From positions 1-43,138 of the forward strand of contig JAJVHV010000044.1 in the NCBI GenBank assembly GCA_022072445.1: a DNA stretch of 43,138 bases, written 5' to 3'. This stretch comes from Phycisphaerae bacterium. Its GTDB lineage: Bacteria; Planctomycetota; Phycisphaerae; UBA1845; Fen-1342. Under the pieces are notes generated by a model. It made no database searches, had not been told where the DNA came from, and saw only the letters and a list, made by a program, of their open reading frames with translations. Within the stretch, counting starts at the first letter, position 1. The number at the start of each line of letters is the position of its first letter. A program made the position numbers and the translations under genes. Shown piece after piece: positions 5,201 through 37,051 of the stretch.

Positions 5201-5299
5201 GCCCGACAAGCCGGCTTCCTGAAGCTCGGCGATCAGCGACGCGTCATGCGGCTCATGCCGGGCAGCGCGCGGCCCGACCGCGATGCGATAGACGTTCAT
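2282..5299 (-). CDS. purL: phosphoribosylformylglycinamidine synthase, PurS-PurS-PurL fusion
   Basis: The 1,005-residue enzyme carries out the ATP-dependent amidation of FGAR to FGAM in purine synthesis. Two PurS-like repeats occupy about residues 1-75 and 85-160. The PurL part follows, with WSEHCVHK (W226-K233, the catalytic-histidine region), ETHNHPSAIEPYGGAATG near 324 and GGRTGRDGIHGATFSSAE near 448, then the second AIRS-like half. The glutaminase PurQ domain of the roughly 1,300-residue proteobacterial PurL is absent, so a separate PurQ should exist elsewhere. The ATG at 5299 is chosen because upstream codons read low-complexity sequence from the 3' end of the neighbouring gene. A short Gly/Arg/Ser-rich insert (KGGSQQGRGRGSARPG) follows the WSEHC region. 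It lies 62 bases after the hydrolase gene on the same strand. Confidence 0.95.
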   Translation of the reverse strand: MNVYRIAVGPRAARHEPHDASLIAELQEAGLSGITGGWRSRLYFLEGELTRADAERIAAALLADPVTETFGVIGMGESPPAIAAAAEFEIHPRPGVMDPVALSTLAELRSADFPVSAVRTGRHFAVRGAVDMAAVLGVVRRCLANDCIEEVISGAMPVGPAPAPPMFEFRLRTIPLRDVDDAGLERLSHEGHLFLSLSELRAIQSHYRGLGRDPTDLELETLAQTWSEHCVHKTLKSEIVYRGEAMPERSDEAKGGSQQGRGRGSARPGDPVEIRYENLLRDTIARATRELIAAGRGPECLSVFVDNAGVIGFDEQYGIAFKVETHNHPSAIEPYGGAATGIGGCIRDVLGCGLGARPIASTDVFCVAPRDWPADGLPAGVLHPRRVLRGVVRGVADYGNRMGIPTVNGAIHFDPRYLGNPLVFCGCVGLIPRDRLDKEVRPGDRVVLIGGRTGRDGIHGATFSSAELTDSHADEFSHAVQIGNAITQKRFLDALLVARDHPTGCLYRALTDCGAGGLSSAVGEMAAEVGAVVDLEHVPLKYAGLRYDEIWISEAQERMVLAVPPERLPALLDVMRAEEVEASVIGEFGDGRGGASDVLRVRYRGTVVGDLDVRFLHHGLPRSARTARWNPPPQATQAGDAPRSAAGPHEPAAAELVRRLGAATVASKEWVIRRYDHEVQGGSVIKPLSGAGVGPNDAAVLRPRLDSQRGVALGCGLCPQLSDVDPYWMAAAAIDEAVRNVVAVGGDPAQTALLDNFCWGRTDDEQHLGALVRACQACYDLAKAYGTPFISGKDSLNNEFALDGADVPPLLETIQRYARGGAFVLELAGQPRFDAGAQIAANVRRGGRLSIPPTLLISAAALVADVRRCVSADLKRAGGELWLVEGFSPLGFEPAAAARVHAAVGSAIRDGLVLACHDASDGGWPVAAAEMAIGGDLGIELRAEADFGLRVASYLIEPAAADGLRTHFATAGVAARPVGRVLGERVVIVGGERIALDDLRRAWRG

Positions 5300-5361
5300 G
5301 CCGGCGATGATATCCGCCGCCGCGCGGCTGGGCGACGCGCCGACCCGGGATCGCGCCGCGG

Positions 5362-6324
5362 CTACGGACCGTCTTTCTTGGTCGGCTTGGCGTCGCGCTC
5401 CGTGCGTTTGTCGGACTTGCCGCGCGGTCCGTCGTCGGGGCCCTTGGACTTGGACGCCCGCAGGCCGCGCGCTTCGGCCTCCTTCGCGGAGGAATAGCTC
5501 CGGAGATTGGTCGGTTTGATCCGCTCGATCCACGCCGAGTCGCGCGGGTGATACACCTCGCTCTTGATGCTCCCGAACACAGGCTCGTCGCTCGCCGGCC
5601 CGACAGCCTTCTGAAGGTAGTCGACAATCGACTTTTCGACGTCGGGTATCGCGTCAAACATGCGCGTACCATGTGCGCTGTACCCGTCGAGGATGCGCGT
5701 CTCGACGCCCTCGGCCTCCTCCTTGAGCTTCTCGCAGGCGTCCCGTTCGTCGCTGGTCGCCATCAACAGGACTTTCCGCCCCGTCACCTTCGCAATGTCG
5801 CGCGCCGAGTTCAGGCCCAGATAATTCGTCCCCGGCGAGAGACACACGATGGCGTCCACGCTGCGATCCTCACCAGCATAGTCCAGCGCAACGCTGCAAC
5901 CGACGCTCGCGCCCACCAGCGCGAATCGTGCCCGATCCACGCCCTTGCGCGCCGCCAGCCAGTCGTACGCCGCCCACACGTCCTCCTTCATCGCCCGGAA
6001 CAGCTTCGCCTCACGCTTCTCCATTTGGCCGCGCGTCGTCTCCGTCGCGCTCTCACCGTGTCCGCGCATGTCCAGGGCCAGCACCGCGAACCCGGACTCC
6101 GACAGCGGTTGGGCCAGCGGTTTCCAACTGCCGCGGTTCTCGCCGTACATGTGCAGCAGGATCACCATCGGTGCCGCATGCTTGCCCGGTTTGGGGGCGT
6201 AGTAATCGGCCACAATCCGTACGCCGTCCGACGTGTCGAACTCGACACGCTCGGCGTCGGCGTGGACGAGTGGGGCGAGCAGCGCGGCGAGGAGCGTGGC
6301 GCTGGCGAACCACCGGCTGGGCAT
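5362..6324 (-). CDS. secreted alpha/beta hydrolase with a degenerate Ada-like tail
   Basis: A signal peptide (about residues 1-22, ending VHADA) precedes an alpha/beta-hydrolase domain. The nucleophile elbow is GASVG with Ser140, the DERD segment near 192 is a plausible acid, and His218 in AHG completes a triad. HMYGENRGSW supplies the oxyanion region and LDMRGHGES the typical strand-4 turn. It looks like a dienelactone-hydrolase or acyl-esterase relative; the substrate is unknown. Residues about 250-296 (VFGSIKSEVYHP ... IKPTNLRSYSSAKEAEARGL) match the small Ada-type metal-binding module, but the expected cysteines are replaced (Ser263, Ser291, Lys294). The last 25 residues are Lys/Arg/Asp-rich. 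AGGAGG lies seven bases before the start. Confidence 0.85.
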   Translation of the reverse strand: MPSRWFASATLLAALLAPLVHADAERVEFDTSDGVRIVADYYAPKPGKHAAPMVILLHMYGENRGSWKPLAQPLSESGFAVLALDMRGHGESATETTRGQMEKREAKLFRAMKEDVWAAYDWLAARKGVDRARFALVGASVGCSVALDYAGEDRSVDAIVCLSPGTNYLGLNSARDIAKVTGRKVLLMATSDERDACEKLKEEAEGVETRILDGYSAHGTRMFDAIPDVEKSIVDYLQKAVGPASDEPVFGSIKSEVYHPRDSAWIERIKPTNLRSYSSAKEAEARGLRASKSKGPDDGPRGKSDKRTERDAKPTKKDGP

Positions 6325-6343
6325 TTCCGACCTCCTGTATCGT

Positions 6344-6370
6344 TTGCACTCTTGCGGAACGTGCTAGAAT
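6344..6370 (+). promoter_or_regulatory. candidate promoter of the sigma factor operon
   Basis: TTGCAC (6344-6349) and TAGAAT (6365-6370) are separated by 15 bases, a little short for a housekeeping promoter. The -10 sits in GCTAGAATAGC, which reads as TATTCT on the other strand, so the element could serve both the hydrolase (minus) and sigma factor (plus) genes. About 150 bases of leader would precede the sigma factor. Confidence 0.35.
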
Positions 6371-6520
6371 AGCGACGGCGACCTTGGTTGATGCACCGAT
6401 TGTGAGCAACGCTGCTGCCCGCGACATCTTAACCATTCTCGGCCCATCCTTGGGAATGGAATCGCCGCGCTGCCTGTTGTTTCATCTGGAGTCGCATACG
6501 CCCCAGGCCGTGGAGAGCTG

Positions 6521-19680: not shown

Positions 19681-19904
19681 GTCGATGTCCTGGTCCGCAG
19701 GTGTTGCCGCCGGCGCGCGGCTCTCGTACCACGCGCGTCGGCCACGAGCGTGCAGGATGCCGGCGCGCAGCGATCATGGAGGACCTGTTTTGCCTCACCC
19801 TGGGTGAAACCGCTGCGTGCCTATTCCAACCAAGCCTCCGTTCCCTGTTGAGGGGGCGAGTCGAGTCCCGCCATCGCCCACTGCTCGACTCGCCCATTCT
19901 TTCC
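19681..19904 (+). repeat. 224-bp duplicated element, copy A, with terminator
   Basis: This segment recurs at 23805-24028 with one visible mismatch (C for T in the tail). Its 3' end is a strong intrinsic terminator on the plus strand: GGGCGAGTCGAG (19854-19865), an 18-base loop, CTCGACTCGCCC (19884-19895) and ATTCTTT. Inside are further self-complementary pairs (GCCGC/GCGGC, CTCGT/ACGAG, GGAGG/CCTCC, TCACC-CTG-GGTGA, CCCT-GTTG-AGGG), suggesting a folded RNA. The minus-strand reading frame runs out of both copies into unrelated sequence without a stop, so it is not a protein gene. The rest of the gap to the MarR gene (19905-20148) holds only a REP-like hairpin at 19938-19956. Confidence 0.9.
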
Positions 19905-19937
19905 GCCAACGACAATCCAGCTAGCGCGGCGCTGTAG

Positions 19938-19956
19938 CACAGCCGCCTCGGCTGTG
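19938..19956. repeat. REP-like hairpin
   Basis: CACAGCCG and CGGCTGTG flank a CCT loop, preceded by TGTAG as in the units at 7978-8035. It lies between the convergent ATP-cone and MarR genes and has no T-rich tail. Confidence 0.7.
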
Positions 19957-20148
19957 ACCCGATGTTGCACATCTCGCGAAATGCCATCCGAGCCCCAAGC
20001 GGCAGCGCGCGGGCATTACTTGAAACTCGCCCCCATGGTCCCGGACCCACGCCAACCCTGAGCGCTTCCGCGCCAAACGTTCCCGCCAGGCGTTTCTCGA
20101 AGGCCCACAACCTCGACACCGGCGGGGCGCGCTCCGGGCCGTGGCGAC

Positions 20149-23605: not shown

Positions 23606-23804
23606 CTACTCCGCGTTGCCGCCCCCGCCGCTCCCGTTGCCGCCGCCCCCGTTCGGATCCTGCTCCAGCATTTTGCGCAAATACTCGTTCTCGCGGCGGG
23701 TCGCTTCGAGGTCGAACATCAGGTATTTAATCGACAGCCGGAGCGAATCGATGCTGTCCTGCAGGCTGTTCACCGTTCGCTTGATGTCGTCGTGACGCTT
23801 TTTG
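23606..23804 (-). pseudogene. coiled-coil protein truncated by the 224-bp element
   Basis: A minus-strand frame encodes about 65 residues: KKRHDDIKRTVNSLQDSIDS, LRLSIKYLMFDLEATRRENE and YLRKMLEQDPN, followed by a Gly/Asn tail. The helix has coiled-coil heptads. Immediately upstream the frame enters element copy B, whose first base is 23805, so the native start is gone; the open frame only reaches an ATG at 23869 inside the element. The element probably landed at or near the start of this gene. It may be inactive, or may use a start within the element. The family is not recognised. Confidence 0.55.
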
Positions 23805-24028
23805 GTCGATGTCCTGGTCCGCAGGTGTTGCCGCCGGCGCGCGGCTCTCGTACCACGCGCGTCGGCCACGAGCGTGCAGGATGCCGGCGCGCAGCGATCA
23901 TGGAGGACCTGTTTTGCCTCACCCTGGGTGAAACCGCTGCGTGCCTATTCCAACCAAGCCTCCGTTCCCTGTTGAGGGGGCGAGTCGAGTCCCGCCATCG
24001 CCCACTGCTCGACTCGCCCATTTTTTCC
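23805..24028 (+). repeat. 224-bp duplicated element, copy B, with terminator
   Basis: Copy B matches 19681-19904 at every position except one in the tail (CATTTTTTCC here, CATTCTTTCC in copy A), at a constant offset of 4,124 bases. The terminator stem is at 23978-23989 and 24008-24019. Flanking bases differ completely on both sides of both copies, so the boundaries are sharp. No terminal inverted repeats and no target-site duplication are evident. Confidence 0.92.
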
Positions 24029-24346: not shown

Positions 24347-25426
24347 GTGATCCAGAAGAATGTTAGCAAGGAATCGTCTGCGCCCGATCCGGTGCCCGAC
24401 TCGTCGCGCGATGGCACCGGAAACACCTTGCGCCCCATGACCCCGGCCCTGCTCTCGCAGCTCTTCGTCGTCCCCGCCCTGATCGTCATTGTCGTGCTCA
24501 CCTGCGCCATGCTCGTGACGCTCATGTTCGGCTGGATCGGATTCGGCCAGCGCGAAGATCTGACGCGACTCGTCGACAAGCTCGCCGCCGGAACGGGCGA
24601 AAAAGTCGTCGGCGTCCTGCTGCTGCCCAAGGAGAAGGAGCTCTGGCTCGCCGCACTGGAGCTGGCCAACCGGCTCCAGAACGCAGACCGCGAAATCCCC
24701 GCCGAGCAACGGCCTGCGCTCGCGGCCCGCCTGGCAGACGTGCTCAGCAAGACCGCCGCCGCTCCGCAACCCAGCGAGGCGACGCGCAACCGCATCACCT
24801 ACATCGCGACGGCCCTCGGGCGGCTGCGTCAGCCGCAAGTCAGCGCCCCGACGCTCGTGGCGTTACTCGATTCAGCCGAAGCTTCGACCCGCGCCGCCGC
24901 CGTCCGCGGCCTCGCCGAACTCGGCCGCGTGTCCCAGACGCAGGCCGCGGCCGGCAAGCTGGCGCAGATGCTGGCCGATGCCAGCCCGCCCGAACTGCGG
25001 ATCATCATCGCCGCCGCCCTCGGGCAGATCGCCACCCCGGGCGATGCGGCGGTGATCGCCGCCCTGCGCCAGGCGCTCGCCGACGAGAATGAGATCCGCT
25101 GGAACGCGGCCCTTTCGCTGGCGCGTCTCGGCGACCGCGGCGGCCTGGCCGACGTCGCCGACATGCTCTCGCGCGACTACTGGAAGTCCGTGAAAGTCCG
25201 CGTCAGCACCGACGACGATCGCACCCGCCCGATGAACGAAGCCGAAATCAGCCGTAACATCCGCGGCGCGCTTTCGGCGCTGCCGGGCATCAACGACTCC
25301 GCGATCGTCGCCGCCGTCGAGAAGCTGAAGTCCGATCCGAATCTGGACGTATCGAAGGCCGCCACGATAATGGCGGGCCAGCTTGGAGCGGGCGGCGGCC
25401 CGCCCGGCACGCCGGAACCCCAGTAA
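24347..25426 (+). CDS. HEAT-repeat membrane protein of the Rieske/cytochrome b cluster
   Basis: The 359-residue product has one transmembrane helix at about residues 36-65 (LFVVPALIVIVVLTCAMLVT), then HEAT-like helical repeats from about 90 to 340 (for example RNRITYIATALGRLRQPQVS, STRAAAVRGLAELGRVSQTQ, ELRIIIAAALGQIATPGDAA, IRWNAALSLARLGDRGGLAD). The repeats probably face one side of the membrane as a scaffold. The GTG at 24347 is the first start codon in frame; the ATG at 24437, which leaves the helix intact, is an alternative. It is the first gene after the CRP-type promoter and ends ten bases before the Rieske gene, so an assembly or accessory role in the bc-type complex is likely. Confidence 0.72.
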   Translation: MIQKNVSKESSAPDPVPDSSRDGTGNTLRPMTPALLSQLFVVPALIVIVVLTCAMLVTLMFGWIGFGQREDLTRLVDKLAAGTGEKVVGVLLLPKEKELWLAALELANRLQNADREIPAEQRPALAARLADVLSKTAAAPQPSEATRNRITYIATALGRLRQPQVSAPTLVALLDSAEASTRAAAVRGLAELGRVSQTQAAAGKLAQMLADASPPELRIIIAAALGQIATPGDAAVIAALRQALADENEIRWNAALSLARLGDRGGLADVADMLSRDYWKSVKVRVSTDDDRTRPMNEAEISRNIRGALSALPGINDSAIVAAVEKLKSDPNLDVSKAATIMAGQLGAGGGPPGTPEPQ

Positions 25427-25436
25427 AGGTCGTCCC

Positions 25437-26459
25437 ATGGCGAATCAGCAGGTTGTGAAGGTCTCGATCGACGCGGGTTGCATCGTCTGCGACGTGTGCG
25501 AAACCGCGGCGCCCACCGTGTTCCACGTCGCCGACGGCAAGTGCGTCGTTCGCCCCGAAGCGCTGAACGCCGAGTTCCTGCGCCCGCTCAGCGCGTCGAT
25601 TCAGGAAGCTGCCGATCGCTGTCCGGTCAGCGTGATCAAATGCGAGCTGGCGGCCGCCGTCGCCACCGCCCCAGCGCCGGCTGCCGCTCCGAAACCTGCC
25701 GCGCCGGCGCCCAGGCCCGCCGCCGCCAGACCCGAACCCGCGCCCGCCGCCGCCAAAGCCGCGCCGTACCCCGATCTCGACCCGACCATGCGCAAGCTGC
25801 TCGAAACCACGCGTTCGCGCGGCGGCACCGCGGGAATCGAGAAAGGCGCGCCCGTCTCGGCCCAGCTCAAGGACACCCCGCTCAGCAAGCTGCCGCCCGA
25901 CGCCCGCTTCCTCAAGATGATGGAAGCCGGAAAGCAAGCCGCCAAACCCGCCGCCAAGCCCAAGCCCGGCGAGCCCACCCGCCGCGACCTGCTCGTCAAG
26001 ACCGCCGGCTGGGGCACCTTCGCGCTCGGATCGGCGGTCGGGCTCTACGGCTGCGGCGTACGTTTCATGTTTCCGAACGTCCTGAACGAGCCGGAGAAGC
26101 GTATTCGCGTGGCCGCGATCGACAAGTTCCGCGAGATGCCGCCGGGCGGCGTGAACGAGGAGTGGAAGCCGCAGGGCATCTGGATCGTGCGGGTGGAGGA
26201 CCAGGTGGCGGCGTTGAGCACGACCTGCACGCACCTGGGCTGCATCCCGTCGTGGCTGGAGGCCGACCGCAAGTTCAAATGTCCGTGTCACGGCAGCGGT
26301 TTCAAGCAGACGGGCATCAACTTCGAGGGTCCCGCGCCGCGTCCGCTGGAGCGGTACAAGGTGTCGGTCGAAGACGGCATTCTGATCGTCGACAAGGGCC
26401 GCAAGTTTCAGTTTGAGAAGGGCGAGTGGGAAAACCCGGAATCGTACGTGCAGGTATGA
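25437..26459 (+). CDS. ferredoxin-Rieske fusion, iron-sulfur subunit of the bc-type complex
   Basis: The 340-residue protein combines two iron-sulfur domains. Residues 1-70 are a single-cluster ferredoxin with Cys15, Cys18 and Cys21 (CIVCDVC) and Cys62 (DRCPVSVI), enough ligands for one [4Fe-4S] cluster. An Ala/Pro-rich linker (about 70-100) and a charged segment follow. At about 181 TRRDLLVKTAGWGTFALGSA forms a twin-arginine-like motif and a membrane anchor. The C-terminal Rieske domain has CTHLGC (264-269) and CPCHGSGF (from 282), giving two Cys and two His ligands for the [2Fe-2S] centre that oxidises quinol. A ferredoxin on the N side of a Rieske anchor is unusual. AAAGG precedes the ATG at 25437. 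Confidence 0.88.
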   Translation: MANQQVVKVSIDAGCIVCDVCETAAPTVFHVADGKCVVRPEALNAEFLRPLSASIQEAADRCPVSVIKCELAAAVATAPAPAAAPKPAAPAPRPAAARPEPAPAAAKAAPYPDLDPTMRKLLETTRSRGGTAGIEKGAPVSAQLKDTPLSKLPPDARFLKMMEAGKQAAKPAAKPKPGEPTRRDLLVKTAGWGTFALGSAVGLYGCGVRFMFPNVLNEPEKRIRVAAIDKFREMPPGGVNEEWKPQGIWIVRVEDQVAALSTTCTHLGCIPSWLEADRKFKCPCHGSGFKQTGINFEGPAPRPLERYKVSVEDGILIVDKGRKFQFEKGEWENPESYVQV

Positions 26460-27172
26460 CGATGGCGCGGCGCGGCAAGCTTGGGTTCGCGATGCTCTTC
26501 ACGACGGGCGTGCTTTGGCTCGCGCCGCTGGCGAAGGCCGATCCGTGTTATCTGCGCTACGACGCCGATGGCGTGTTTCCGGAAGAGGCGGGCTGGACGC
26601 GGTTCTATGATGACGGCGCCGGCGAGAGCAGAAGCATTGACCAAGGAGTCCTCACCCTGGATACCTTGGCCTCCCGCGATATTTTCGACCTTTACGAGGT
26701 CTCGGATGAGGCGCTAACGCCGAATGCTGGCGAGGAGTTCTCGCTGTCTTGGCGGATGCAGACGACGGCGCAGGACGCGAGCTTTCCCAAGAGCGATGTT
26801 GCCGTGGGTGTGATTAACAGTGAGCACTCGTACGCTATCTTGTACATCGGTTCGGATTTCGTGACGGAGGATCGCTTTCTCGCGGGATTCACGGAGCTCG
26901 CAGCCTCTTTCGCTCCCGATGTTGCTCATACCTTTCGCTTTCTGACGCGCGACATGGAGACTTATTCGCTGTTTGTCGATGGGCAGCCGGCGTTTACCGG
27001 TGAATTCCATGACTACGCGTGGCGGGACGTACCTCGCGTGAGCTGGGGAGATGCGTTTGTCGGCTACGCGTCTCTGTCTCAGTGGGACTTTGTAGAAGTA
27101 GCTGTCACACCGGAACCGCCATCCGTACTCGCCGTCGCAGCCTGCTTACTCTTGCGAAAGAGATTTCGATGA
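26456..27172 (+). CDS. PEP-CTERM secreted protein, copy 1
   Basis: The 238-residue protein has a signal peptide (about residues 8-28, ending LAKADP), a beta-rich body (LRYDADGVFPEEAGWTRFYD, EEFSLSWRMQTT, YSLFVDGQPAFTGEFHDYAW), and a PEP-CTERM tail, VTPEPPSVLAVAACLLLRKR, which exosortase systems use for sorting. The body resembles a concanavalin-type lectin/LamG sandwich; this is a guess from strand pattern. Its ATG overlaps the Rieske stop (ATGA), so it is read as part of the respiratory operon, though nothing in it suggests electron transfer. The gene and the three that follow are visibly richer in A and T than the flanking cytochrome genes. Copy 2 lies at 27871. Confidence 0.78.
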   Translation: MTMARRGKLGFAMLFTTGVLWLAPLAKADPCYLRYDADGVFPEEAGWTRFYDDGAGESRSIDQGVLTLDTLASRDIFDLYEVSDEALTPNAGEEFSLSWRMQTTAQDASFPKSDVAVGVINSEHSYAILYIGSDFVTEDRFLAGFTELAASFAPDVAHTFRFLTRDMETYSLFVDGQPAFTGEFHDYAWRDVPRVSWGDAFVGYASLSQWDFVEVAVTPEPPSVLAVAACLLLRKRFR

Positions 27173-27834
27173 GGATCTGGCAGCTTGGGTATTTGTGTGT
27201 CATGGCTTGCGTTTCTGTCGATGCATTCGGGCAAAATTATCGATCGGATAATTTCGGCTCTGGAAAGTGGTGTGTATTTGCCCGAAATGCGCAGGCGCCG
27301 GGTTCAGGAGACTACGATTGGAATCAAGTCTCCGGTGTACTCACGATCAAGAACGATGGTACGTGGCAAATCCGCTACCAAAACGACAGCAGCTTCTTTG
27401 TAGGTACAGCGATCGATATTCCGGGAGTACTCACCCAGTCTAACGCTGGCACCGGGCAAGGATTCGCTGCACGCCTGGAGGGTCGAAGTATCATCGGTCG
27501 CGTCGATCTAGATCTGCTCAATGCTCAGCCCTACGGCGACTTCTATCTTCGCCTCGAACAGGGTGGAGGTGTTCAGGCTGTCGTAACGGCCGGCACACTG
27601 CGCATGACTTGGTCCGAGATTCCCGGCGGCATCACGAGTGCCGGTAACCTCCAGGTCGAGGAAGTATGGAGCCACCCAACATATGGATACGGTGTCAATA
27701 TGGGTGGCAACGTCGCCGGTCAGTTTCGCATTTACGAGGACATCGAAAACGGCTCGGCGGTCAGCATCGCCGGAAACCTCTCCGGCGAACTACGCGTCAA
27801 TCGAGGTTCGCGATCTGCTTGCGAGTTGAGTTGA
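27169..27834 (+). CDS. secreted QNYR-type protein, copy 1, 3' end deleted
   Basis: The 221-residue product has a signal peptide (MRIWQLGYLCVMACVSVDAF) and a repetitive beta-structured body (FGSGKWCVFARNAQAP, VLTIKNDGTWQIRYQND, TLRMTWSEIPGGITSAGNLQ, GNVAGQFRIYEDIENGSAVS). The start overlaps the previous stop by ATGA. Compared with copy 2 (28617-29896), about 614 bases are missing after GELRVNR, including both dockerin repeats; 614 is not a multiple of three, so the last nine codons read the old tail out of frame. The remnant of the original ending (VRDLLAS, stop) is visible in another frame at 27806-27829. The function is unknown and the product may be non-functional. Confidence 0.65.
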   Translation: MRIWQLGYLCVMACVSVDAFGQNYRSDNFGSGKWCVFARNAQAPGSGDYDWNQVSGVLTIKNDGTWQIRYQNDSSFFVGTAIDIPGVLTQSNAGTGQGFAARLEGRSIIGRVDLDLLNAQPYGDFYLRLEQGGGVQAVVTAGTLRMTWSEIPGGITSAGNLQVEEVWSHPTYGYGVNMGGNVAGQFRIYEDIENGSAVSIAGNLSGELRVNRGSRSACELS

Positions 27835-27850
27835 AAACGGCCCCGTGTCG

Positions 27851-27949
27851 GAACAGGACGAGCATCACCCATGAGCATCATGAATCGCGTAGGCGACTGG
27901 ATCACCGGCTCGCAGATCTGGGGCTCCATTTTTCGGCACGGCGCTCCCA
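27851..27949 (+). repeat. 99-bp repeat of the cytochrome b start, copy 1
   Basis: This segment matches 29918-30016 with only about three differences (offset 2,067). It comprises the leader and first 26 codons of the cytochrome b gene. It marks the junction of the tandem duplication: after 27949 copy 1 enters the PEP-CTERM gene while copy 2 continues as cytochrome b. Confidence 0.95.
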
Positions 27950-28626
27950 GTGCGATGGCGTTGCTCATAGCGCCTCTAGCGGCCGCCGATCCGTACTACC
28001 TGCGCTATGACGCGGACGGCGTGTTTCCTGAAGAGTCGGGCTGGACGCGGTACTATGATGATGCCGGGGTCGAAAAACGCTCGATCGAGGAGGGTGTTCT
28101 CTCGCTGGACACGACCGGGGCGCTGGAGATCTTCGACTTGTACGAGGTGGTAATTCCGGCGTTGAACCTCAAGTCGGGCGAGTCGCTCCGCGTATCCTGG
28201 CGCATGCAGACCGTCGACACGAACGCTGAGTTTCCGAATAGCGATGTGAGCGTGGCGATCGTTAATGAGCGCGGCGCTTTTGCCGGCTTCTACATCGCGA
28301 GCTCCTATCTGATCGAGTTCCGGTATCTGCTCGGATACGACGAGCTGCACGTGCCGATTGCTCCCGGCGAGTTTCACACGTATGAGTTTGCAAGCTTCGA
28401 CATGGAGACTTATGATCTCTATGTGGATTCACAGCTTGCCATAAGTGGGGAATTCCATGATTTCGCATGGCGCGATGCGCCGCGAGTAGGTTTTGGCGAT
28501 TCGGTTACGGGGTATACATCGGTGTCGCTCTGGGATCGCGTCGAAGTCTCAGTAACACCGGAACCAGCGTCGCTCGTTGTGCTGTTGGTGCTCGGACTGA
28601 CGAGGAGAATTCTGACATGGCGTTAG
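27871..28626 (+). CDS. chimera: cytochrome b N terminus fused to PEP-CTERM protein, copy 2
   Basis: The first 26 residues ([26 protein letters not shown]) are identical to the start of the cytochrome b protein at 29938. From residue 27 on (AMALLIAPLAAADPYYLRYD) it is a homologue of the PEP-CTERM protein at 26456, ending VTPEPASLVVLLVLGLTRRI. The front of the original signal peptide has been replaced by the amphipathic cytochrome b leader. The remaining hydrophobic stretch is short, so export may be impaired. The frame is intact over 251 codons. This is the expected product of a tandem duplication whose right break lies in codon 26 of cytochrome b and whose left break lies in the PEP-CTERM signal peptide. 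Confidence 0.85.
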   Translation: MSIMNRVGDWITGSQIWGSIFRHGAPSAMALLIAPLAAADPYYLRYDADGVFPEESGWTRYYDDAGVEKRSIEEGVLSLDTTGALEIFDLYEVVIPALNLKSGESLRVSWRMQTVDTNAEFPNSDVSVAIVNERGAFAGFYIASSYLIEFRYLLGYDELHVPIAPGEFHTYEFASFDMETYDLYVDSQLAISGEFHDFAWRDAPRVGFGDSVTGYTSVSLWDRVEVSVTPEPASLVVLLVLGLTRRILTWR

Positions 28627-29896
28627 CGAGAGTTGTTTGTATATCAGTGCTTTTCTCCGGAATCTCGAGTTTTTCCGCGGCGCAGAACTACCGCGCGGAG
28701 ACTTGGGGAAGCGGAAAATGGTGCGTCTTCATCCGAAACGGTCAAGCGCCCACCATGTCCACTACACCTGGGACAGCCAGTTTGGCTTCCTCACTCTTCG
28801 TGATGATGGAACTTGGGTGATTCGATACCAGAACAACAATAGTTTCTTCGCTGGCTCGGCGATCGATATTCCTGGTGTCCTGACCACGCTCAACGCGGGG
28901 CACGGACAAGCCTTCCACGTGCGGCTCGAGGGGCGTGACATTCTGGGTACGGTTGACTTGGATAGGCTGAATGCATCACCCTTTGGGGATTTGTATCTTC
29001 GGCTTGAGCAGGGAGGTGCAGTCAAAGCGCTTGTTGGTGCGGCTAGCATGCTTCGTATGACCTGGTCCGAGATTCCCGGCGGTATCACAAGCGCTGGCAA
29101 TCTCCAAGTCGCGGAGGTTTACAGCCACGCGACGTTCGGCTACGGCGTCAACATCGGTGGCAACGTCGCCGGGCAGTTTCGCATCTATGAGGACATTGAG
29201 AACGGCTCGGCGGTCAGCATCGCGGGAAACCTCTCGGGCGAGCTGCGCGTCAATCGATACCTGGCAGGCGAGATTCGAATCAACGGCTCGTTGATCGACG
29301 GCTCGTACGCCAACGAAATCCGGATTGAGAACGATATTCTTTCCACGGGCGCCATCGCCGTCGACTACAACGGCTGGCAGAGCGGCGACGACTGGCAATC
29401 CGGCGCCCACGTCTTGGTGGGCGGCGACGGCGGGGCCGTATACACAAGCAACACGCCATCCGAACGCATCTGGGAGATCACGCCCTGCAAGGGCGACATG
29501 AATAATGACGGCTCGGTCAACGGGTTTGACGTCGATCCGTTCGTATTAGCGCTCGCTGGCGCAACCGGCTACGCCTCTGCGTACCCAGGGCTGGCTGGCA
29601 GCATGGTCTTTCACGGCGATTTGAACTGCGATGGAAATCTCAATGGCTTCGATGTCGATCCGTTCACCGATCGTGTCATCGAAAGCTGCTGCCTTGCGAC
29701 CTGCGGCTCTTGCGGCGATGGACTGCTTGGCGGCGGGTCACACGACCCAGCGACGATTGCCGATCTCTTCAAGGACAATTTGAGCGAGGGCGGGCTGGGC
29801 GTTTTCCTCAACATACTCGACGATATGATCGCAAGCGCCGACAGCGAGACTGTCGCCGAATTCTGGACCATTGTTCGCGACCTGCTCGCGAGCTGA
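28617..29896 (+). pseudogene. secreted QNYR-type protein with dockerin tail, copy 2, frameshifted
   Basis: The gene starts at 28617, overlapping the chimera by ten bases, with signal peptide MALARVVCISVLFSGISSFS and mature start QNYRAETWGSGKWCVFIRNG. After QAP the frame is lost: the homologous continuation (HHVHYTWDSQFGFLTLRDDG) is one frame back, from 28751. Restoring one C in the run CCC at 28749-28751 gives a full-length protein of about 426 residues. It would include the repeats shared with copy 1, a second beta block (YLAGEIRINGSLIDGSYANE), two dockerin-like loops (GDMNNDGSVNGFDVDPF, GDLNCDGNLNGFDVDPF) and a C-terminal helix region. Whether the shift is real or a sequencing error cannot be told. 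Confidence 0.75.
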
Positions 29897-29917
29897 GTTG
29901 ATATGGGCACAGTGACA

Positions 29918-30016
29918 GAACAGGACGAGCATCACGCATGAGCATCATGAATCGCGTAGGCGACTGGATCACCGGCTCGCAGATCTGGGGCTCCATCTTT
30001 CGGCACGGCGCCCCCA
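29918..30016 (+). repeat. 99-bp repeat of the cytochrome b start, copy 2 (native position)
   Basis: This is the partner of 27851-27949 at the true cytochrome b start. Homology between the two copies also extends leftwards through the QNYR-type gene tails (27806 against 29873, same offset of 2,067 bases) but at lower identity. Confidence 0.95.
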
Positions 30017-30723
30017 AGGATCGCCGCACGCGGGCGATGGTCGTTCTGACGAACGTCTTTCTGCATCTGCACCCGGTCGCCGTGCGCAAAAGCGGCATCA
30101 AGCTGAGCTTCACCTGGTGCATGGGCGGGCTGACGTTCTTCCTGTTCCTGGTGGAGACCATCTCGGGCGTGCTGCTGATGTTCTACTACCGCCCCGTGGT
30201 CGAATACGCCTATACCGACATTCAGGGATTGCGGGCGCACGTGACGCTCGGCCTGCTGCGCGAGATTCATCGCTGGGGGGCACACGCGATGGTGATCGCC
30301 ATCTGGCTGCACATGATGCGCGTGTTTCTGACCGGCAGCTACAAGCCGCCGCGCGAGTTCAACTGGGGCGTCGGCGTCATCCTGCTGGTGTTGACGTTAT
30401 TGCTGAGCTTCACGGGCTATCTGCTGCCGTGGGATCAGTTGGCCATGTGGGCCATCACGGTCGGGTCGAACATGGCCCGCGCCACGCCCGTCCTCGGCAA
30501 CGAAGGCCCCGGCGCCGCCTTTCTCACCATCGGCGGCGCGCCGATCATCCACGCCGGCTCCGACGCGCGTTTCGGCCTGCTGGCCGGCACGTTCGTCGGC
30601 GAGAACGCGCTGCTGCGTTTCTACGTGTTGCACTGCGTCGCGATTCCGCTCGCCGTCTCCGTGCTGATCGCGGTGCACTTCTGGCGCATCCGCAAGGACG
30701 GCGGCATCAGCGGACCGCTCTAA
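29938..30723 (+). CDS. b6-type cytochrome b, N-terminal subunit of a Rieske/cytochrome b complex
   Basis: The 261-residue membrane protein resembles cytochrome b6. Two histidine pairs bind the b haems: IHRW and WLH, 14 residues apart, and LHCVAIP with VHF, 15 apart as in b6. Cys61 in FTWCMGGLT aligns with the Cys35 of b6 that binds the extra haem c-i covalently, so that haem is probably present. [11 protein letters not shown] and the end [11 protein letters not shown] are also b6-like. About 45 extra N-terminal residues form an amphipathic leader. With the Rieske and C-terminal subunits it would oxidise menaquinol or another quinol and pump protons. Four foreign genes now separate it from the Rieske gene. 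Confidence 0.94.
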
Positions 30724-30855: not shown

Positions 30856-31953
30856 ATGCTAGCTGAATCCGGCTCCATGCAGGGTCTGATCGACCTCATC
30901 TTCTCCCCGTCGGTCATCTTCCTCGGTTCGTCGGCAATCCTCGCCGCCTATCTCACCTTCCGCCGCGCGCTGGCCCGGCCCACGGCGGCGGTCTTCGCGT
31001 TCTTCATCTTCACCGCGATCTACATCTGGCTGTGCACGGCGATCAAGGACCACGACGGCCGCCTGATCGCGCTCTTCCCCGACAACTTCCCTATCACCCT
31101 CATGCTCTACTCCACCTTCAGCCTCGCCTGGCTGGGATTGTGGAAAGCGGTGCAGAACGACGACCGTGTCGCCCGCGGCGAGCCGCTCATCGAGGCCGGC
31201 GCCGACGACAAGGTCTTCACCTGGCCCGATCTGGTCTACACCGAGCTGATCTGCATGGTGGTGGCCACCGCGGCGATCACGGTCTGGGCAATCGTGTTGA
31301 AAGCCCCCCTCGAACCGCCCGCCAACCCGATGGACATTCCCAATCCGTCGAAGGCGCCCTGGTACTTCCTCGGATTGCAGGAGTTGCTGGTCTACTTCGA
31401 CCCGTGGATCGCCGGCGTGCTGCTGCCCGGCTTCATCATCGTCGGCCTGATCGCCGTTCCCTACATCGACAAGAACCCCAAAGGCAACGGCTACTACACC
31501 TTCAGCGAACGCCCCCTGGCGATCTCGCTCTTCTACTTCGGCTTTCTGATCATGTGGGTCGTGCTGATCATGCTCGGCACGTTCCTCCGCGGCCCGAACT
31601 GGAACTTCTTCGCCCCCGGACACCAGTGGGACCCGCACCAGTCCGCCGCCCTGCTGAATATCAACGTGTCCGACATCTTCTGGATCAAGCTGCTGGGCGG
31701 CGGGCTGCCGTCGAATTTCGTCATCCGCGAGATGCCCGGAATCGTGCTGCTGGCGGTCTACTTCATCCTCATCCCGGTCGCGCTGGCCCGCACGCTCTTC
31801 GCCCGGCTCTTCCGCCAGATGGGCTTCGTTCGCTACGCGATCTTCATGGTGCTGTTCATGACCACCGCCCTGGTCCCGATCAAGATGATCTTCCGCTGGA
31901 CCATCAACCTCAAGTACATCGTCGGCATCACGGAGTACTTCTTTAACGTCTGA
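30856..31953 (+). CDS. cytochrome b C-terminal (subunit IV-type) membrane subunit, extended
   Basis: The 365-residue protein has two extra helices at the front (about 10-60), then the subunit IV-type core: PPANPMDIPNPSKAPWYFLG holds the Qo-site motif as APWY in place of PEWY, and LQELLVYFDPWIAGVLLPGF and IVGLIAVPYIDKNPKGNGYY follow. Three or more further helices reach the C terminus, making it about twice the length of PetD. Loss of the motif glutamate is a known variation in some menaquinol-using complexes. The 132-base gap after the b6-type gene contains a short AAGTGAC/AAATGAC tandem repeat near 30750-30770. ATG 30856 is used; ATG 30886 is possible. Confidence 0.9.
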   Translation: MLAESGSMQGLIDLIFSPSVIFLGSSAILAAYLTFRRALARPTAAVFAFFIFTAIYIWLCTAIKDHDGRLIALFPDNFPITLMLYSTFSLAWLGLWKAVQNDDRVARGEPLIEAGADDKVFTWPDLVYTELICMVVATAAITVWAIVLKAPLEPPANPMDIPNPSKAPWYFLGLQELLVYFDPWIAGVLLPGFIIVGLIAVPYIDKNPKGNGYYTFSERPLAISLFYFGFLIMWVVLIMLGTFLRGPNWNFFAPGHQWDPHQSAALLNINVSDIFWIKLLGGGLPSNFVIREMPGIVLLAVYFILIPVALARTLFARLFRQMGFVRYAIFMVLFMTTALVPIKMIFRWTINLKYIVGITEYFFNV

Positions 31954-32013: not shown

Positions 32014-35000
32014 ATGCCGGTCCAGAACGAAACACTCTACAACGTCAAACGGCTGAACCTCGTCTTCGCCGTCAGCAGCGTGGCCTTCCTGGTCATCACG
32101 GCCTGGATGATGATCGAAGACCACAACGCCACCTGGAAGTATCACCAGGCCGATTTCCAGCGCAACGTCGCCACGCTCACCGAGCTCGAGCTGCAACGCT
32201 ACGAAAGCCCCGACTTCCAGCGCCAGCTCGACGCCGCCCACCAGCGGCTCGCCGCCGCCGAAACTCAGCTCGCCGCCAATCCGCAGCTCCGCGACATCCA
32301 GCGCGAACTCGCCGCCGAGGAAGCCCGGCTCCAGGGCGTGCTGCTCAAGTACAACGACGCCAAGTCCGTGCTCGACGTCCGCAAGCAGGAATACGAACGC
32401 GCCGACGCGCTCGCCGGCCGGTCGTCGCGCGCCTTCGCCTCCGCCCGGACCGAGTTCGAAGCCCTCGCCGCGACTTTCCAGTCGCTCGCCCGCGAAAAGG
32501 AAAAAGTCGAAGACCGCCTCGCCGAGCTGAAATCCGCCCGCAAGGAGCTCAGCAAGAGCCGCGACGAAGCCAAAAAATCCCTCGCCGCATTGCAGCGCAA
32601 GATCGACACCGCCCAGAAACGCCTGGATACCAACGAGCCCAGCGGCCTGAACTGGATCGCCAACAACCTGCTCGACTTCGCCGTCGGACAGATTCGCGTC
32701 AAGCAGGTCGTCCTGCCCGAAGTCCGCAAACCCCTTAACTTCCTCGATTCCTACCAGGTCGACCGCTGCCAATCGTGCCACGTCGCCATTGACCGGGCCG
32801 AGTTCGGCGACGAGGAGATGTGCGTCAACCTGCTGCTCGCCGTCGCCGCCGCCAACAGCGAGCGCCAAGCCGCCGGAAAAACTCCCGTCTCGCTGCCCAT
32901 TCCGCTCCCGGATGCCCCGCCCGCCGCGGGCTCCGGCGCCGCCCCGCCCAGCGACGACGATCTCAAGAAGCTGGCCGACCTCGAAACCCAGCGCGAACGC
33001 GTCATTCGCGACCACTGGCGCAGGCTCGTCCTCGCCGACGATCGCGACGGCCAGCAGAAGCTGCTCACCGCCGCCCTGGCCGCCATGAACGAAATCCGCG
33101 GGCAGCGCGGCGAATCAGCCCTCTCGCTCGAACACCCGCTCCGCGCCCATCCGCGCCTCGACCTGTACGTCTCGCCCGACTCGCCCCACCCCATCAACAA
33201 GATGGGCTGCACAGTCTGTCACGGCGGCAACGGCGACGAGACGTCGTTCACCACCGCCATCCACACCGCGGAAACGCACGAACAGGAAGAGGAGTGGATC
33301 GACAAGTATCAGGGGCGCATCGACTACACGCTGGCGCATCACTGGTGGACGCGCCCGATGTACGCGAAGAAATACGTCGAAGCCAGTTGCACCAAGTGCC
33401 ACGAGCAGGCCGCCGACGTCGCCCAGTTCGAAAACGAACCGCTCGCCACGCGCATCACCCACGGCCGGCAACTCTACGCCGACCTGGGCTGCATCAACTG
33501 CCACAAGGTCGCCAATATCGACGACTCGCGCCGGGTCGGCCCCGATCTGCGGCACATCAGCTCGAAGCTCACGCCCGAGTTCACGCAACCCTGGGTCTGG
33601 TATCCGCGCGATTTCCGTCCCAGCACCCACATGCCGCACTTCTTCCGCCAGGAGAACAACGCCGCCCACAGCTCGCTGCCCGACGACCCGGACGCCGATC
33701 CCGCCTTGCGCACCGAGACCGAAGTCGCCGCCATCACCCAGTGGCTCTTCAGCTTCAGCACGCCCTATGCCGCTGAGCAGATTCCCGAGGGGCTCGCCGC
33801 CGCCGGCGACGCCGAAAACGGCCGCGTCCTCTTCGAAAAGACCGGCTGCCTCGCCTGCCACGCCGCTCTGAAGCACCGCTCGACGCCCAATGATCCGACG
33901 CTCGGCGAAAAGTGGATCACCGCCGACCTCGCGCATCGCGAGAAGCTCGCGCCTGAAAAAGCCCTCATGCGCGCCCGCGCCATGACCTATGCCGAGCAGG
34001 TCCGCTACGCGATGGAGAAACTGCCGCCCGAAAACCGCGAGCGCGCCGAAAAGCTCAAGGAACACACCCGCTGGGAGATGGAGAAAGCCCGCAAGGACGG
34101 CGACGCCGAAAAGGTCAATCGCCTCTCCGCCGAGCTGGCCAACTTCTACGTTCCGGCGGCCTTCACGCGCTTCGCGCCCGAGCTGTCCGGCATCGGCAGC
34201 AAGACCACGTTGCCCTGGCTCTACGATTGGCTGCGCAATCCGCGGCACTATTCCGAATACACCAAGATGCCCAGCCTGCGCCTCAGCGAGAAGGAAGCCG
34301 TCGACATCGCCAGCTATCTGCTCACGCTCAAGAACGACGAGTTCCAACAGCACACCTTCGAGCTCAACGACCAGCGCCAGGCCATGCTCGATCACCTCAT
34401 CCTCGAGCTGCTCGGCGGCCAGAACTCGCTCGCCACGTCGCAGCGCATCCTCAATGACGAGGACGGCCGTCTGACCGAAATGCTGGCGCGACTGCTCAAG
34501 ACGGCGATTCCCGACCCGTCCCAGGCCCGCGCCAAGGTCGAAGCCCTCGACCTCCCGACGCGCAAGCTGGTCTTCCTCGGCAACAAGATGATCAACCACT
34601 ACGGCTGCTACGCCTGCCACGTCATTCCCGGATTCGAGACCGCGCAGCGCCCCGGCACCGAGATGACCGCCTGGGCCGAGAAGTCCATCAACCAGCTCGA
34701 CTTCGCGTTCTTCACGCACATGTTCGAAGAGAAAATGGGCGAGCGGCTGCATCATCTCTATCCCGAAGAGCCCGAATTCGCACATCTCGTCCAGGACGGC
34801 GGCCAGCGCGACATCCACGTCGGCCACAAACACTCGTCCTTCGCCTGGCACAAGCTCCGCAATCCGCGCATCTGGGACCGCGACAAGTTCAAGAGCCCCT
34901 ATGAAAAGCTCAAGATGCCGAATTTCTACCTCACCGACGCCGAGGCCGACGCACTCGTAACCTACCTGCTCAGCAGGCAGAAACCCTACGTCACGCCGAG

Positions 35001-36189
35001 CATCGTCGCCGGCCCCGACACGCTCATGCCCGACGTCGGCGCCGGGCGGAATCTCGTCGCCGAGCTGAACTGCGTCGGCTGCCACAACATCGAGCACAAC
35101 GCCGCCACCATGCATCAATACATCACCCTCGCCGCCGGAGGTGCCGCCGGCGGAGCTGCGGAGGAAGAAGAGGAGGAGGAGACCGAGGAGACCGAGGAGT
35201 CCGGCGGGAAACCCGCCGCCGCCCCCGCGGCAGCCGGCGCGTCGCTCGCCGACCAGGCCGCTGCCATCCTCGCCGCCCACGGCGCCTTTGACGAAGTGAA
35301 CGGCCCGCCTTGGCTCCGCGGCGAAGGCGCCAAGATTCAGCACGCCTGGCTGGCCGACTTCCTGCACAACGTCCGCACGCTGCGCCCCTGGCTGGCTGTC
35401 CGCATGCCCAGCTTCCACCTCACCAACGATCAGGCCCGCACGATCGCCGCCTACTTCGCTGCCGTCGCTCAGCGCGAATCGCGCCAATTGCAGAAGCAGC
35501 TCGCCGGCGTCGACAAGTACCTCGCCACCAGCCCGTCCGATAAACCCGCCAGCGACTGGCACCGCGATCCCCAATTCGCCAAAACGACCCGATACCTCGC
35601 AAAATATGCGCTCGACAATCGGCTGAAGAACCCGCTCGATTTCCACGGCGACGCCGCCTCCGCCGACATCGCGAAATCGTACGACGACGCCCGCCGGCAG
35701 GCCGCATTTTTTGCCGATCTCTACAACGTCCACTATCCTTTTGTCGCGGCCCCACGCGCGCTCGTCGGCGACGAGCGCTTCGCGTCCGGCCGCGAGCTGG
35801 TGATCGATCGTCTCGATTGCCTCGCGTGTCACGCACTCGGCGACCCCAACGTCCCCGGTGCCAATAAAAGTCCGACCGCGCCCAACCTCTCGCTCACGCA
35901 CCGCCGTTTGCGCTGGGAGTGGGTCGATAAGTGGATGCAAGAGCCGGCCTGGATTCAGCCAGGCACGAAGATGCCGCAGTGGTTCCCGGGCGGCCGCTCC
36001 GCCTTCGTCGATTTCGGCGAGACCCGCGCCGCCTACGAGCAGAAGTTCGGCAGCCAGGGTCCGCAGCAGATCGACGTCCTGCTCGACTTCCTCTACGAGG
36101 CTGGCGAGCGGGCCTATACGGGCGTCAAGGGACAGAAAACCGCGCCGGCCGCTGAATCGAGCGCGGCCGCCAGCCGTCAGAAGCAATAG
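32014..36189 (+). CDS. giant octahaem cytochrome c, membrane-anchored
   Basis: The 1,391-residue protein has one N-terminal membrane anchor (LVFAVSSVAFLVITAWMM), a long coiled coil at about 40-205, then eight CxxCH haem sites at about residues 252 (CQSCH), 399 (CTVCH), 459 (CTKCH), 493 (CINCH), 612 (CLACH), 865 (CYACH), 1020 (CVGCH) and 1269 (CLACH). Class I cytochrome c-like segments with distal Met candidates (TKMPSLRLSEKEAVDIASYL, LKMPNFYLTDAEADALVTYL, VRMPSFHLTNDQARTIAAYF) recur through it. An acidic EEEEEEETEETEE linker lies near 1050. It follows the cytochrome b subunits by 60 bases and is the likely electron acceptor from the Rieske centre. Such large multihaem partners are known in planctomycete complexes; this exact architecture is not one I can name. 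Confidence 0.9.
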   Translation: MPVQNETLYNVKRLNLVFAVSSVAFLVITAWMMIEDHNATWKYHQADFQRNVATLTELELQRYESPDFQRQLDAAHQRLAAAETQLAANPQLRDIQRELAAEEARLQGVLLKYNDAKSVLDVRKQEYERADALAGRSSRAFASARTEFEALAATFQSLAREKEKVEDRLAELKSARKELSKSRDEAKKSLAALQRKIDTAQKRLDTNEPSGLNWIANNLLDFAVGQIRVKQVVLPEVRKPLNFLDSYQVDRCQSCHVAIDRAEFGDEEMCVNLLLAVAAANSERQAAGKTPVSLPIPLPDAPPAAGSGAAPPSDDDLKKLADLETQRERVIRDHWRRLVLADDRDGQQKLLTAALAAMNEIRGQRGESALSLEHPLRAHPRLDLYVSPDSPHPINKMGCTVCHGGNGDETSFTTAIHTAETHEQEEEWIDKYQGRIDYTLAHHWWTRPMYAKKYVEASCTKCHEQAADVAQFENEPLATRITHGRQLYADLGCINCHKVANIDDSRRVGPDLRHISSKLTPEFTQPWVWYPRDFRPSTHMPHFFRQENNAAHSSLPDDPDADPALRTETEVAAITQWLFSFSTPYAAEQIPEGLAAAGDAENGRVLFEKTGCLACHAALKHRSTPNDPTLGEKWITADLAHREKLAPEKALMRARAMTYAEQVRYAMEKLPPENRERAEKLKEHTRWEMEKARKDGDAEKVNRLSAELANFYVPAAFTRFAPELSGIGSKTTLPWLYDWLRNPRHYSEYTKMPSLRLSEKEAVDIASYLLTLKNDEFQQHTFELNDQRQAMLDHLILELLGGQNSLATSQRILNDEDGRLTEMLARLLKTAIPDPSQARAKVEALDLPTRKLVFLGNKMINHYGCYACHVIPGFETAQRPGTEMTAWAEKSINQLDFAFFTHMFEEKMGERLHHLYPEEPEFAHLVQDGGQRDIHVGHKHSSFAWHKLRNPRIWDRDKFKSPYEKLKMPNFYLTDAEADALVTYLLSRQKPYVTPSIVAGPDTLMPDVGAGRNLVAELNCVGCHNIEHNAATMHQYITLAAGGAAGGAAEEEEEEETEETEESGGKPAAAPAAAGASLADQAAAILAAHGAFDEVNGPPWLRGEGAKIQHAWLADFLHNVRTLRPWLAVRMPSFHLTNDQARTIAAYFAAVAQRESRQLQKQLAGVDKYLATSPSDKPASDWHRDPQFAKTTRYLAKYALDNRLKNPLDFHGDAASADIAKSYDDARRQAAFFADLYNVHYPFVAAPRALVGDERFASGRELVIDRLDCLACHALGDPNVPGANKSPTAPNLSLTHRRLRWEWVDKWMQEPAWIQPGTKMPQWFPGGRSAFVDFGETRAAYEQKFGSQGPQQIDVLLDFLYEAGERAYTGVKGQKTAPAAESSAAASRQKQ

Positions 36190-36316: not shown

Positions 36317-37051
36317 ATGAACAACCGTCTCATCACCGCTTCGCTCGCTGTGCTCGTCGCGGCGGCGTGTGCCTGCGGCGCGCTGGCCGACGGCAGCGTC
36401 AAGGGCAAGGTCAACTTCAAGGGCAAGCCGCCCAAGTACAAGGCCATCCAGATGAGCGCCGACGCAAACTGCGCGGCGATGCACAAGGACCCGGTGCGTC
36501 CGGAATACATCGTGGTCAACGACAACGGCACGCTTCGCGACGTGTTCATTCACGTCAAGAGCGGCCTGACCAAGAAGGACTGGCCCGTCCCGACCACGTC
36601 GGTCCTGATCGACCAGAGCGGCTGCACGTACAAGCCGCACGTCTTCGCCGTCCAGGCCGGCCAGCCGATTCTGATCCGCAACAGCGATGGTACGTCGCAC
36701 AACATCCACTCGCTGCCCAAGACCAACCAGCCGTTCAACTTCGGCCAGCCGCAGAAGGGCATGGAGAAGACCGAAACGTTCAAGAACCCCGAGCTCGAGA
36801 TCAAGATCAAGTGCGACGTCCATCCGTGGATGGGCGCCTGGTGCCACGTGGTCGATCACCCGTTCTACGCCGTCACCGGCGCCGACGGCACGTTCGAGAT
36901 CAAGGGCCTGCCCGCCGGCGAGTACGAGATCGAAGCCTGGCAGGAGAAACTCGGCACGCAGACCATGAAGGTGAAGGTCGGCGACGGCGAGAGCAAGGAC
37001 ATCGAATTCACCTTCGAGAAGGGCGAGAAGAAGGAAGACAAGGACGAGTAG
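36317..37051 (+). CDS. periplasmic cupredoxin-like protein with carboxypeptidase-regulatory-like tail
   Basis: The 244-residue protein has a signal peptide (ending CGALADG) and an N-terminal beta domain (SVKGKVNFKGKPPKYKAI, with a CAAMH segment). A plastocyanin-like domain follows: ILIRNSDGTSHNIHSLPKTN supplies the first histidine, and CDVHPWMGAWCHVVDHPFYA gives the Cys-His-Met ligand group of a type 1 copper site plus a second Cys-His pair. GADGTFEIKGLPAGEYEIEA is a transthyretin-like CarboxypepD_reg segment, and the tail is Lys/Glu-rich. Related proteins accompany multihaem respiratory clusters. It may carry electrons from the octahaem cytochrome; this is inferred from position. Confidence 0.8.
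   Translation: MNNRLITASLAVLVAAACACGALADGSVKGKVNFKGKPPKYKAIQMSADANCAAMHKDPVRPEYIVVNDNGTLRDVFIHVKSGLTKKDWPVPTTSVLIDQSGCTYKPHVFAVQAGQPILIRNSDGTSHNIHSLPKTNQPFNFGQPQKGMEKTETFKNPELEIKIKCDVHPWMGAWCHVVDHPFYAVTGADGTFEIKGLPAGEYEIEAWQEKLGTQTMKVKVGDGESKDIEFTFEKGEKKEDKDE

Follow-up and report, generated by a model that had tools for sequence, protein, structure and literature searches.

A Rieske protein with a built-in single-cluster [4Fe-4S] ferredoxin in a b6f-like complex of Phycisphaerae-related planctomycetes

The Kustd1480-1485 complex of Kuenenia stuttgartiensis, as set out in the main text of PMC12954380, comprises a b6-like cytochrome b, a subunit IV-like protein, a large multihaem cytochrome c in which long helices occur and, at the inner side, an NAD(P) oxidoreductase. 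Its Rieske protein, Kustd1480, was measured there at +335 mV, with the tuning residues Ser114/Phe116, and the authors favour a bifurcating reduction of NAD(P); the terms ferredoxin, Phycisphaer and planctomycet are absent from that main text. The other close point of reference is the chloroplast b6f complex, for which direct transfer from ferredoxin to b6f at haem ci is a long-standing question in photosynthesis. Transfer by way of haem ci continues to be proposed, as in parts of PMC5683061, PMC10931702 and PMC13287000, and the abstract of PMC10931702 still calls the entity responsible for ferredoxin:plastoquinone reductase activity unidentified.

Here we describe a gene, in a 43,138-nucleotide stretch of a draft Phycisphaerae genome (the window), which encodes a ferredoxin and a Rieske protein as one polypeptide. 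The domains are known and so is the class of complex; what is novel is the arrangement, conserved across one lineage. No description of the fusion was found among the titles and abstract openings that full-text searches of open-licence papers brought up.

The fusion gene and its operon

The fusion gene is a single open reading frame running from ATG to TGA with zero internal stops, and is separated by 10 bases from the stop codon of a HEAT-repeat gene. The features of the window that concern us are as follows.

24347-25426, plus strand: HEAT-repeat protein with an N-terminal membrane helix, first gene of the operon (HEAT_2, E 6.4e-16; hydrophobic segment 39-57; same place in most fusion loci)
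25437-26459, plus strand: ferredoxin-Rieske fusion gene, 340 amino acids (open reading frame and Pfam)
25467-25640, plus strand: single-cluster [4Fe-4S] ferredoxin domain, residues 11-68, ligands C15, C18, C21 and C62, extra invariant C36 (Fer4_13, PDB profile matches, conservation)
25653-25976, plus strand: Ala/Pro-rich linker, residues 73-180, with two conserved motifs (alignment)
25977-26072, plus strand: twin-arginine motif R182 R183 and predicted membrane anchor helix, residues 181-212 (conservation; AF2 helix)
26073-26456, plus strand: Rieske [2Fe-2S] domain, CTHLGC...CPCHGSGF (Pfam Rieske; 9rk3 match; Foldseek)
29938-30723, plus strand: b6-type cytochrome b, four-helix, with haem ci cysteine C61 (Cytochrome_B, E 4e-40)
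30856-31953, plus strand: subunit IV-like protein with extra membrane segments (Cytochrom_B_C, E 2.7e-6)
32014-36189, plus strand: octahaem cytochrome c, eight CxxCH motifs, N-terminal helix and coiled-coil region (CxxCH count)
36317-37051, plus strand: secreted cupredoxin-like protein, HNIH...CDVHPWM (motif)

An earlier note on this DNA had proposed a ferredoxin with ligands Cys15, 18, 21 and 62, joined by an Ala/Pro linker to a membrane-anchored Rieske domain. All four cysteines are present in the translation and the proposed order holds: in Pfam searches Fer4_13 matches residues 11-68 (E 7.6e-7, exceeding the curated cut-off) and Rieske matches residues 241-307 (E 2.5e-10), with the twin arginine and the predicted helix between them, and both Rieske cluster motifs, CTHLGC and CPCHGS, are there. 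Fer4_13 was matched at E<=1e-3 by 45/45 members of the ferredoxin domain set, and a profile built from these 45 domains had as its top PDB matches the single-cluster ferredoxins 1iqz, 1rof/1vjw and 2z8q, from Bacillus thermoproteolyticus, Thermotoga and Pyrococcus respectively. The closest solved relative of the Rieske part is 9rk3, which is Kustd1480 of Kuenenia (E 6.8e-36); this entry also ranked first in Foldseek (TMt 0.90), where the 50 matches listed for the whole model were all Rieske proteins, an uninformative outcome. The AF2 model of the window protein has a helix at 182-211 and a good Rieske part; its quality is low for the ferredoxin (pLDDT about 35-60), a domain carried by only two alignment rows.

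The fusion loci repeat one gene order: HEAT protein, ferredoxin-Rieske, b6-type cytochrome b, subunit IV-like protein and octahaem cytochrome c. Of the 53 loci, 50 have the cytochrome b gene, and many of the missing operon genes are accounted for by contig ends; the fusion gene stands alone on a long stretch in one locus (L122, genome G204), and both the HEAT protein and the octahaem cytochrome are absent nearby in another (L102, genome G034). There is no cytochrome f gene in the operon, the octahaem cytochrome c being found in its place. The earlier note had spoken of a bc-type complex: a cytochrome b complex it is, but with cytochrome b split from subunit IV it is better named b6f-type.

In the alignment, C61 of cytochrome b falls on the YCxGG cysteine of b6 (Cys35), the attachment site of haem ci. 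This cysteine is present in 49/50 fusion loci (G034 has Gly) and in 47/59 loci without the fusion, and is thus typical of the whole family rather than a mark of the ferredoxin. In the subunit IV-like gene (region 31318-31380), KAPWYF replaces the PEWY quinol-site motif in 46/46 relatives, so that the usual Glu is missing; the protein has seven hydrophobic segments by hydropathy only, a count that may or may not agree with the five membrane helices of the Kustd1480-1485 type. The N-terminal region of the octahaem cytochrome is charged and helical-looking, with SMC-like matches, and all 39 long octahaem relatives have eight CxxCH motifs. A relative of the cupredoxin-like protein occurs in 30/53 fusion loci, including L003, many of these loci being truncated; judging by its motif, it is a possible electron acceptor.

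Cytochrome b residues 41-46 (30058-30075) read FLHLHP, and H43 and H45 are found in 50/50 fusion loci. A histidine of this motif possibly ligates the extra inner-side haem b that is predicted for Kuenenia (His62 of Kustd1481).

Some further features of the window genome were seen alongside. An insert of about 3.5 kb (26460-29937) separates the Rieske and cytochrome b genes, which lie only about 85 bases apart in L003. The insert holds two tandem pairs of secreted-protein-like reading frames and repeat families of 218, 144 and 143 nt; by the 144-nt repeat (91% identical), the first 26 codons of cytochrome b (29938-30016) are repeated upstream at 27871-27949, fused to another reading frame, as if a tandem duplication had copied the start of the cytochrome b gene. 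Two minus-strand reading frames (about 19700-19990 and 23790-24010) share some 70 residues almost without difference, meaning that two copies of a segment of about 200 bases lie roughly 4 kb from each other. On contig 15 of the window genome (L002), and also in L054, a second Rieske system is seen: a multihaem cytochrome c that ends in a Rieske domain and whose locus also contains a cytochrome b match.

Recurrence, conservation and spread of the fused ferredoxin

A search elsewhere for the same domain order, which the earlier note had put forward as a check, found it in 51 genomes in which the ferredoxin region is covered. This bears on the simplest objection, that an assembly error or a chance reading frame has united two genes. 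The window contig does come from a draft genome, and the fusion was seen in no other of the 27 family genomes that were searched; one neighbouring gene, used to check whether the contig belongs to family f1, matched in 5/27 genomes and was uninformative. However, the 51 genomes include three that are single contigs (G098, G107 and G108), and recurrence on this scale rules out an artefact, for which we see a vanishingly small chance.

Loss of ligands in close homologues was looked for and none was seen: C15, C18, C21, C62 (the CxxCxxC...CP ligand set) and the fifth cysteine, C36, are all kept in 51/51 covered sequences. A degenerate ferredoxin is excluded by these intact ligands. The twin arginine R182-R183 is kept in 53/53 fusion sequences. 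Among 50 sequences (three fragments were dropped), the ferredoxin has a mean pairwise identity of 71%, as against 72% for the Rieske core and 36% for the linker, so that the ferredoxin is as constrained as the catalytic Rieske part. The linker does have conserved motifs, a DPxxxALL...ARGG stretch (about residues 115-134) and LPPDAR (about 152-157); neither these motifs nor C36 and the twin arginine had been pointed out in the earlier note. In the same 50 sequences the reach from C62 to the twin arginine is 118-146 residues in all except G034, where it is only 35.

Strong matches (E<=1e-20) were obtained in 57 of the 114 genomes of the order: 45 with the ferredoxin, 10 without it (of which G077 sits at a contig start) and two (G072 and G073) truncated by the end of the contig. 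When the class was sampled evenly, 19/150 genomes matched at E<=1e-35, and the six of these from outside the order were all fusions. Among other planctomycete classes in the phylum sample, 22 genomes matched and no match reached the ferredoxin residues; larger stretches around 20 of these 22 contained no ferredoxin of the fused kind, and neither did any of 46 further relatives (L004-L049, mostly Acidobacteria) carry one. The same operon order exists without ferredoxin in Acidobacteria and in other planctomycete classes, where 17/20 loci have a cytochrome with 7-8 CxxCH motifs.

In a tree of 108 Rieske domains, 52 fusion rows and four rows from family f6 make up one side of a branch with 100/100 support, and the fusion label needs two changes on it: one gain, and then one change in f6. 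On this sampling, the fusion arose within Phycisphaerae-related planctomycetes, and none of the further classes and phyla in the samples has it.

On the tree, the change in f6 looks like simple loss of the ferredoxin, a reading that we rejected because these genomes turned out to have the ferredoxin as a gene of its own. Four f6 genomes (G037, G041, G042 and G044) have the Rieske protein without the ferredoxin, and in 4/4 cytochrome b/subunit IV is followed, on the same strand, by a separate ferredoxin reading frame; as G041 and G042 belong to a single genus and have an identical copy, the four genomes represent three genera. These frames match the ferredoxin profile at E 1e-12 to 1e-18, with Fer4_13 above its cut-off, and in L103 and L105 the likely ATG falls about 130 bases past the subunit IV frame. 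All four stand-alone ferredoxins keep the four ligands and have Ala in place of C36. They are closest to one another (identity 1.0, 0.64 and 0.55) and at most 46-48% identical to the fused ones, and may have come about by fission of the fused domain or by recruitment of a similar ferredoxin; the fifth f6 genome, G034, retains the fusion. That the ferredoxin is encoded beside the complex in 4/4 of these genomes suggests that it goes with the complex, fused or not, rather than with the Rieske fold, and, as read from the sequences, this exception is the best functional evidence in the dataset.

Possible electron routes through the complex

The ferredoxin is N-terminal to a Tat-type anchor, formed by the invariant twin arginine and the predicted helix, and such an anchor would keep the ferredoxin on the inner side while the Rieske domain is exported. 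The placement of the two domains on opposite sides of the membrane, as the earlier note had claimed, is thus what we predict. Its suggestion of a route for low-potential electrons fared less evenly: a functional tie between ferredoxin and complex is supported by the conserved operon and the four relatives with a neighbouring ferredoxin gene, while for the route, its direction and its potentials we can offer inference.

Building on the fusion, the conservation of its ligands, the operon, the haem ci cysteine and the separate-gene relatives, all of which are established at the level of sequence, we propose that the inner-side ferredoxin could be an electron port to menaquinone, a reading (with its docking, path and direction) to which we give an even chance. 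The protein serves a b6f-like complex of the Kustd1480-1485 kind as its Rieske subunit, and its anchor would hold the [4Fe-4S] ferredoxin at the cytoplasmic face. There it would receive electrons from soluble donors, namely 2-oxoacid:ferredoxin oxidoreductases (POR) or their ferredoxins, and these electrons would pass via haem ci and then haem bN to the inner quinone site, where they would reduce menaquinone; the quinol would then be oxidised at the outer site through the Rieske centre and the octahaem cytochrome c. In favour of this inward route are the invariant ligands and twin arginine, the constraint on the ferredoxin relative to the linker, the conserved operon with its haem ci cysteine, the separate ferredoxin gene in f6 and the chloroplast proposal mentioned above. 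Genome G286, which has the same kind of complex with a different inner-side module, also fits. Donors of the POR family are present in 113/114 genomes of the order, but the family is broad (it also matches 11/14 control genomes) and its presence, being near universal, is uninformative as a test.

Several observations count against the inward route. The ferredoxin is poorly modelled, G034 combines the fusion with Gly at the haem ci position, and Acidobacteria and further classes of planctomycetes have the octahaem complex but no ferredoxin with it. The inner segment of cytochrome b is equally basic (+7) with and without the ferredoxin, and we regard this charge comparison as uninformative. Passing low-potential electrons straight to menaquinone would also waste energy, an objection made with respect to NAD(P)H by the Kuenenia authors in the main text of PMC12954380.

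The Rnf complex is a membrane outlet for ferredoxin electrons. In the window genome there was no RnfC match and no other Fer4_13 domain, and this too is in keeping with the inward route. Within family f7, an RnfC_N match was found in 0/27 fusion genomes and in 7/22 others (Fisher p 0.002, uncorrected for kinship; one of the seven, G089, is below the cut-off). However, Rnf does not generally exclude the fusion: 14/15 fusion genomes of family f8 have an RnfC_N match (three of these RnfC-like proteins, when tested, scored near the NCBIfam rnfC cut-off), and replacement of Rnf by the fusion was rejected as a general rule. Across the order the match is present in 15/45 fusion and 28/67 other genomes (Fisher p 0.55, computed with 27/40 in place of 28/39). 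Both the f7 and the order-wide counts leave out G072 and G073, in which the ferredoxin region is cut off.

The main rival is the reverse direction, in which menaquinol at the outer site would be bifurcated, one electron passing to the high-potential Rieske centre and octahaem cytochrome c and the other reducing the ferredoxin via bP, bN and ci, much as the Kuenenia complexes are proposed to reduce NAD(P). The Rieske centre gives this some grounds, as Kustd1480, the closest solved relative, is at +335 mV (main text of PMC12954380) and its tuning residues have counterparts in Ser287/Phe289 of the window protein (Ser in 52/52 covered sequences; Phe in 29 and Tyr in 23); the exchanged inner-side module of G286 can be counted for this direction as well. 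Yet it would need a very low bP and a control against menaquinone reduction at the inner site, the latter regarded by the Kuenenia authors as by far the greater difficulty (same main text), and these genomes, in which POR is everywhere, are not known to require additional reduced ferredoxin. We consider the reverse direction tentative and rather unlikely. Somewhat more doubtful is its fuller form, a bifurcating menaquinol oxidase that would make reduced ferredoxin, with the high-potential Rieske/octahaem branch driving a low branch from bP through bN and ci to the fused [4Fe-4S] cluster; if true, a bc-type complex would become a source of low-potential reducing power.

Two further readings would deny the ferredoxin any current through the haems. 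It could be a regulatory, sensing or assembly domain, for example one gating Tat export or contributing to the stability of the complex; the complex does exist elsewhere without it, the long linker has conserved motifs that could dock, and the invariant C36 could be redox active. The invariant set of four ligands argues against this, and a free-standing subunit without C36, as in f6, fits electron transfer better than a Tat-linked role, so that we think a regulatory function improbable. Alternatively the ferredoxin could be a mere membrane tether, concentrating exchange between soluble cytoplasmic enzymes with no haem communication, as the long and flexible reach from C62 to the twin arginine in 49/50 sequences would allow. 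The short reach in G034 puts the cluster next to the membrane, however, and the separate ferredoxin genes adjoin subunit IV, which leaves such a tether highly improbable.

With its ferredoxin predicted at the inner side, the complex may exchange electrons directly with the low-potential carriers of the cell. That a lineage has permanently joined ferredoxin to the complex removes the problem of a weak, transient partner, and makes the path directly testable.

Comparison with known complexes

The Rnf complex and the fusion complex have unrelated subunits, and Rnf reduces NAD+. With the single-cluster [4Fe-4S] ferredoxins 1iqz, 1vjw/1rof and 2z8q the fused domain has its sequence family and ligand pattern in common, but it is joined to a Rieske anchor and has the additional invariant C36.

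In common with chloroplast b6f, the complex described here has the split into b6 and subunit IV, the haem ci cysteine and, by prediction, a ferredoxin at the inner face. In contrast to the chloroplast, where ferredoxin is a soluble partner (in the relevant part of PMC10931702), the ferredoxin here is covalently attached and of the [4Fe-4S] type, and the octahaem cytochrome c replaces cytochrome f.

The likeness to Kustd1480-1485 extends to a four-helix b6-like cytochrome b, a subunit IV-like protein, an octahaem cytochrome c with long helices and, as predicted here, an inner-side redox module. The modules differ, Kuenenia having an NAD(P) oxidoreductase inside and the window a single-cluster ferredoxin fused to the Rieske anchor. 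There is no NAD(P) oxidoreductase gene in the window operon, and a scan of the flanks of the 53 fusion loci for Fer4 motifs only gave two unconvincing matches. In G286, whose Rieske protein matches 9rk3 over its full length (E 9e-71), the Kustd1480-type operon (L188) encodes a 570-amino-acid FeS/flavin NAD(P) oxidoreductase at 4692-6401 on the minus strand, with Fer4_20, Pyr_redox_2 and Fer4 matches. Taken with the fusion loci and those without ferredoxin, this points to one family of complexes that have an NAD(P) oxidoreductase, a ferredoxin or no visible module at the inner side; with the Kuenenia complexes added, the picture suggested is of an octahaem Rieske/b family with exchangeable inner-side redox modules.
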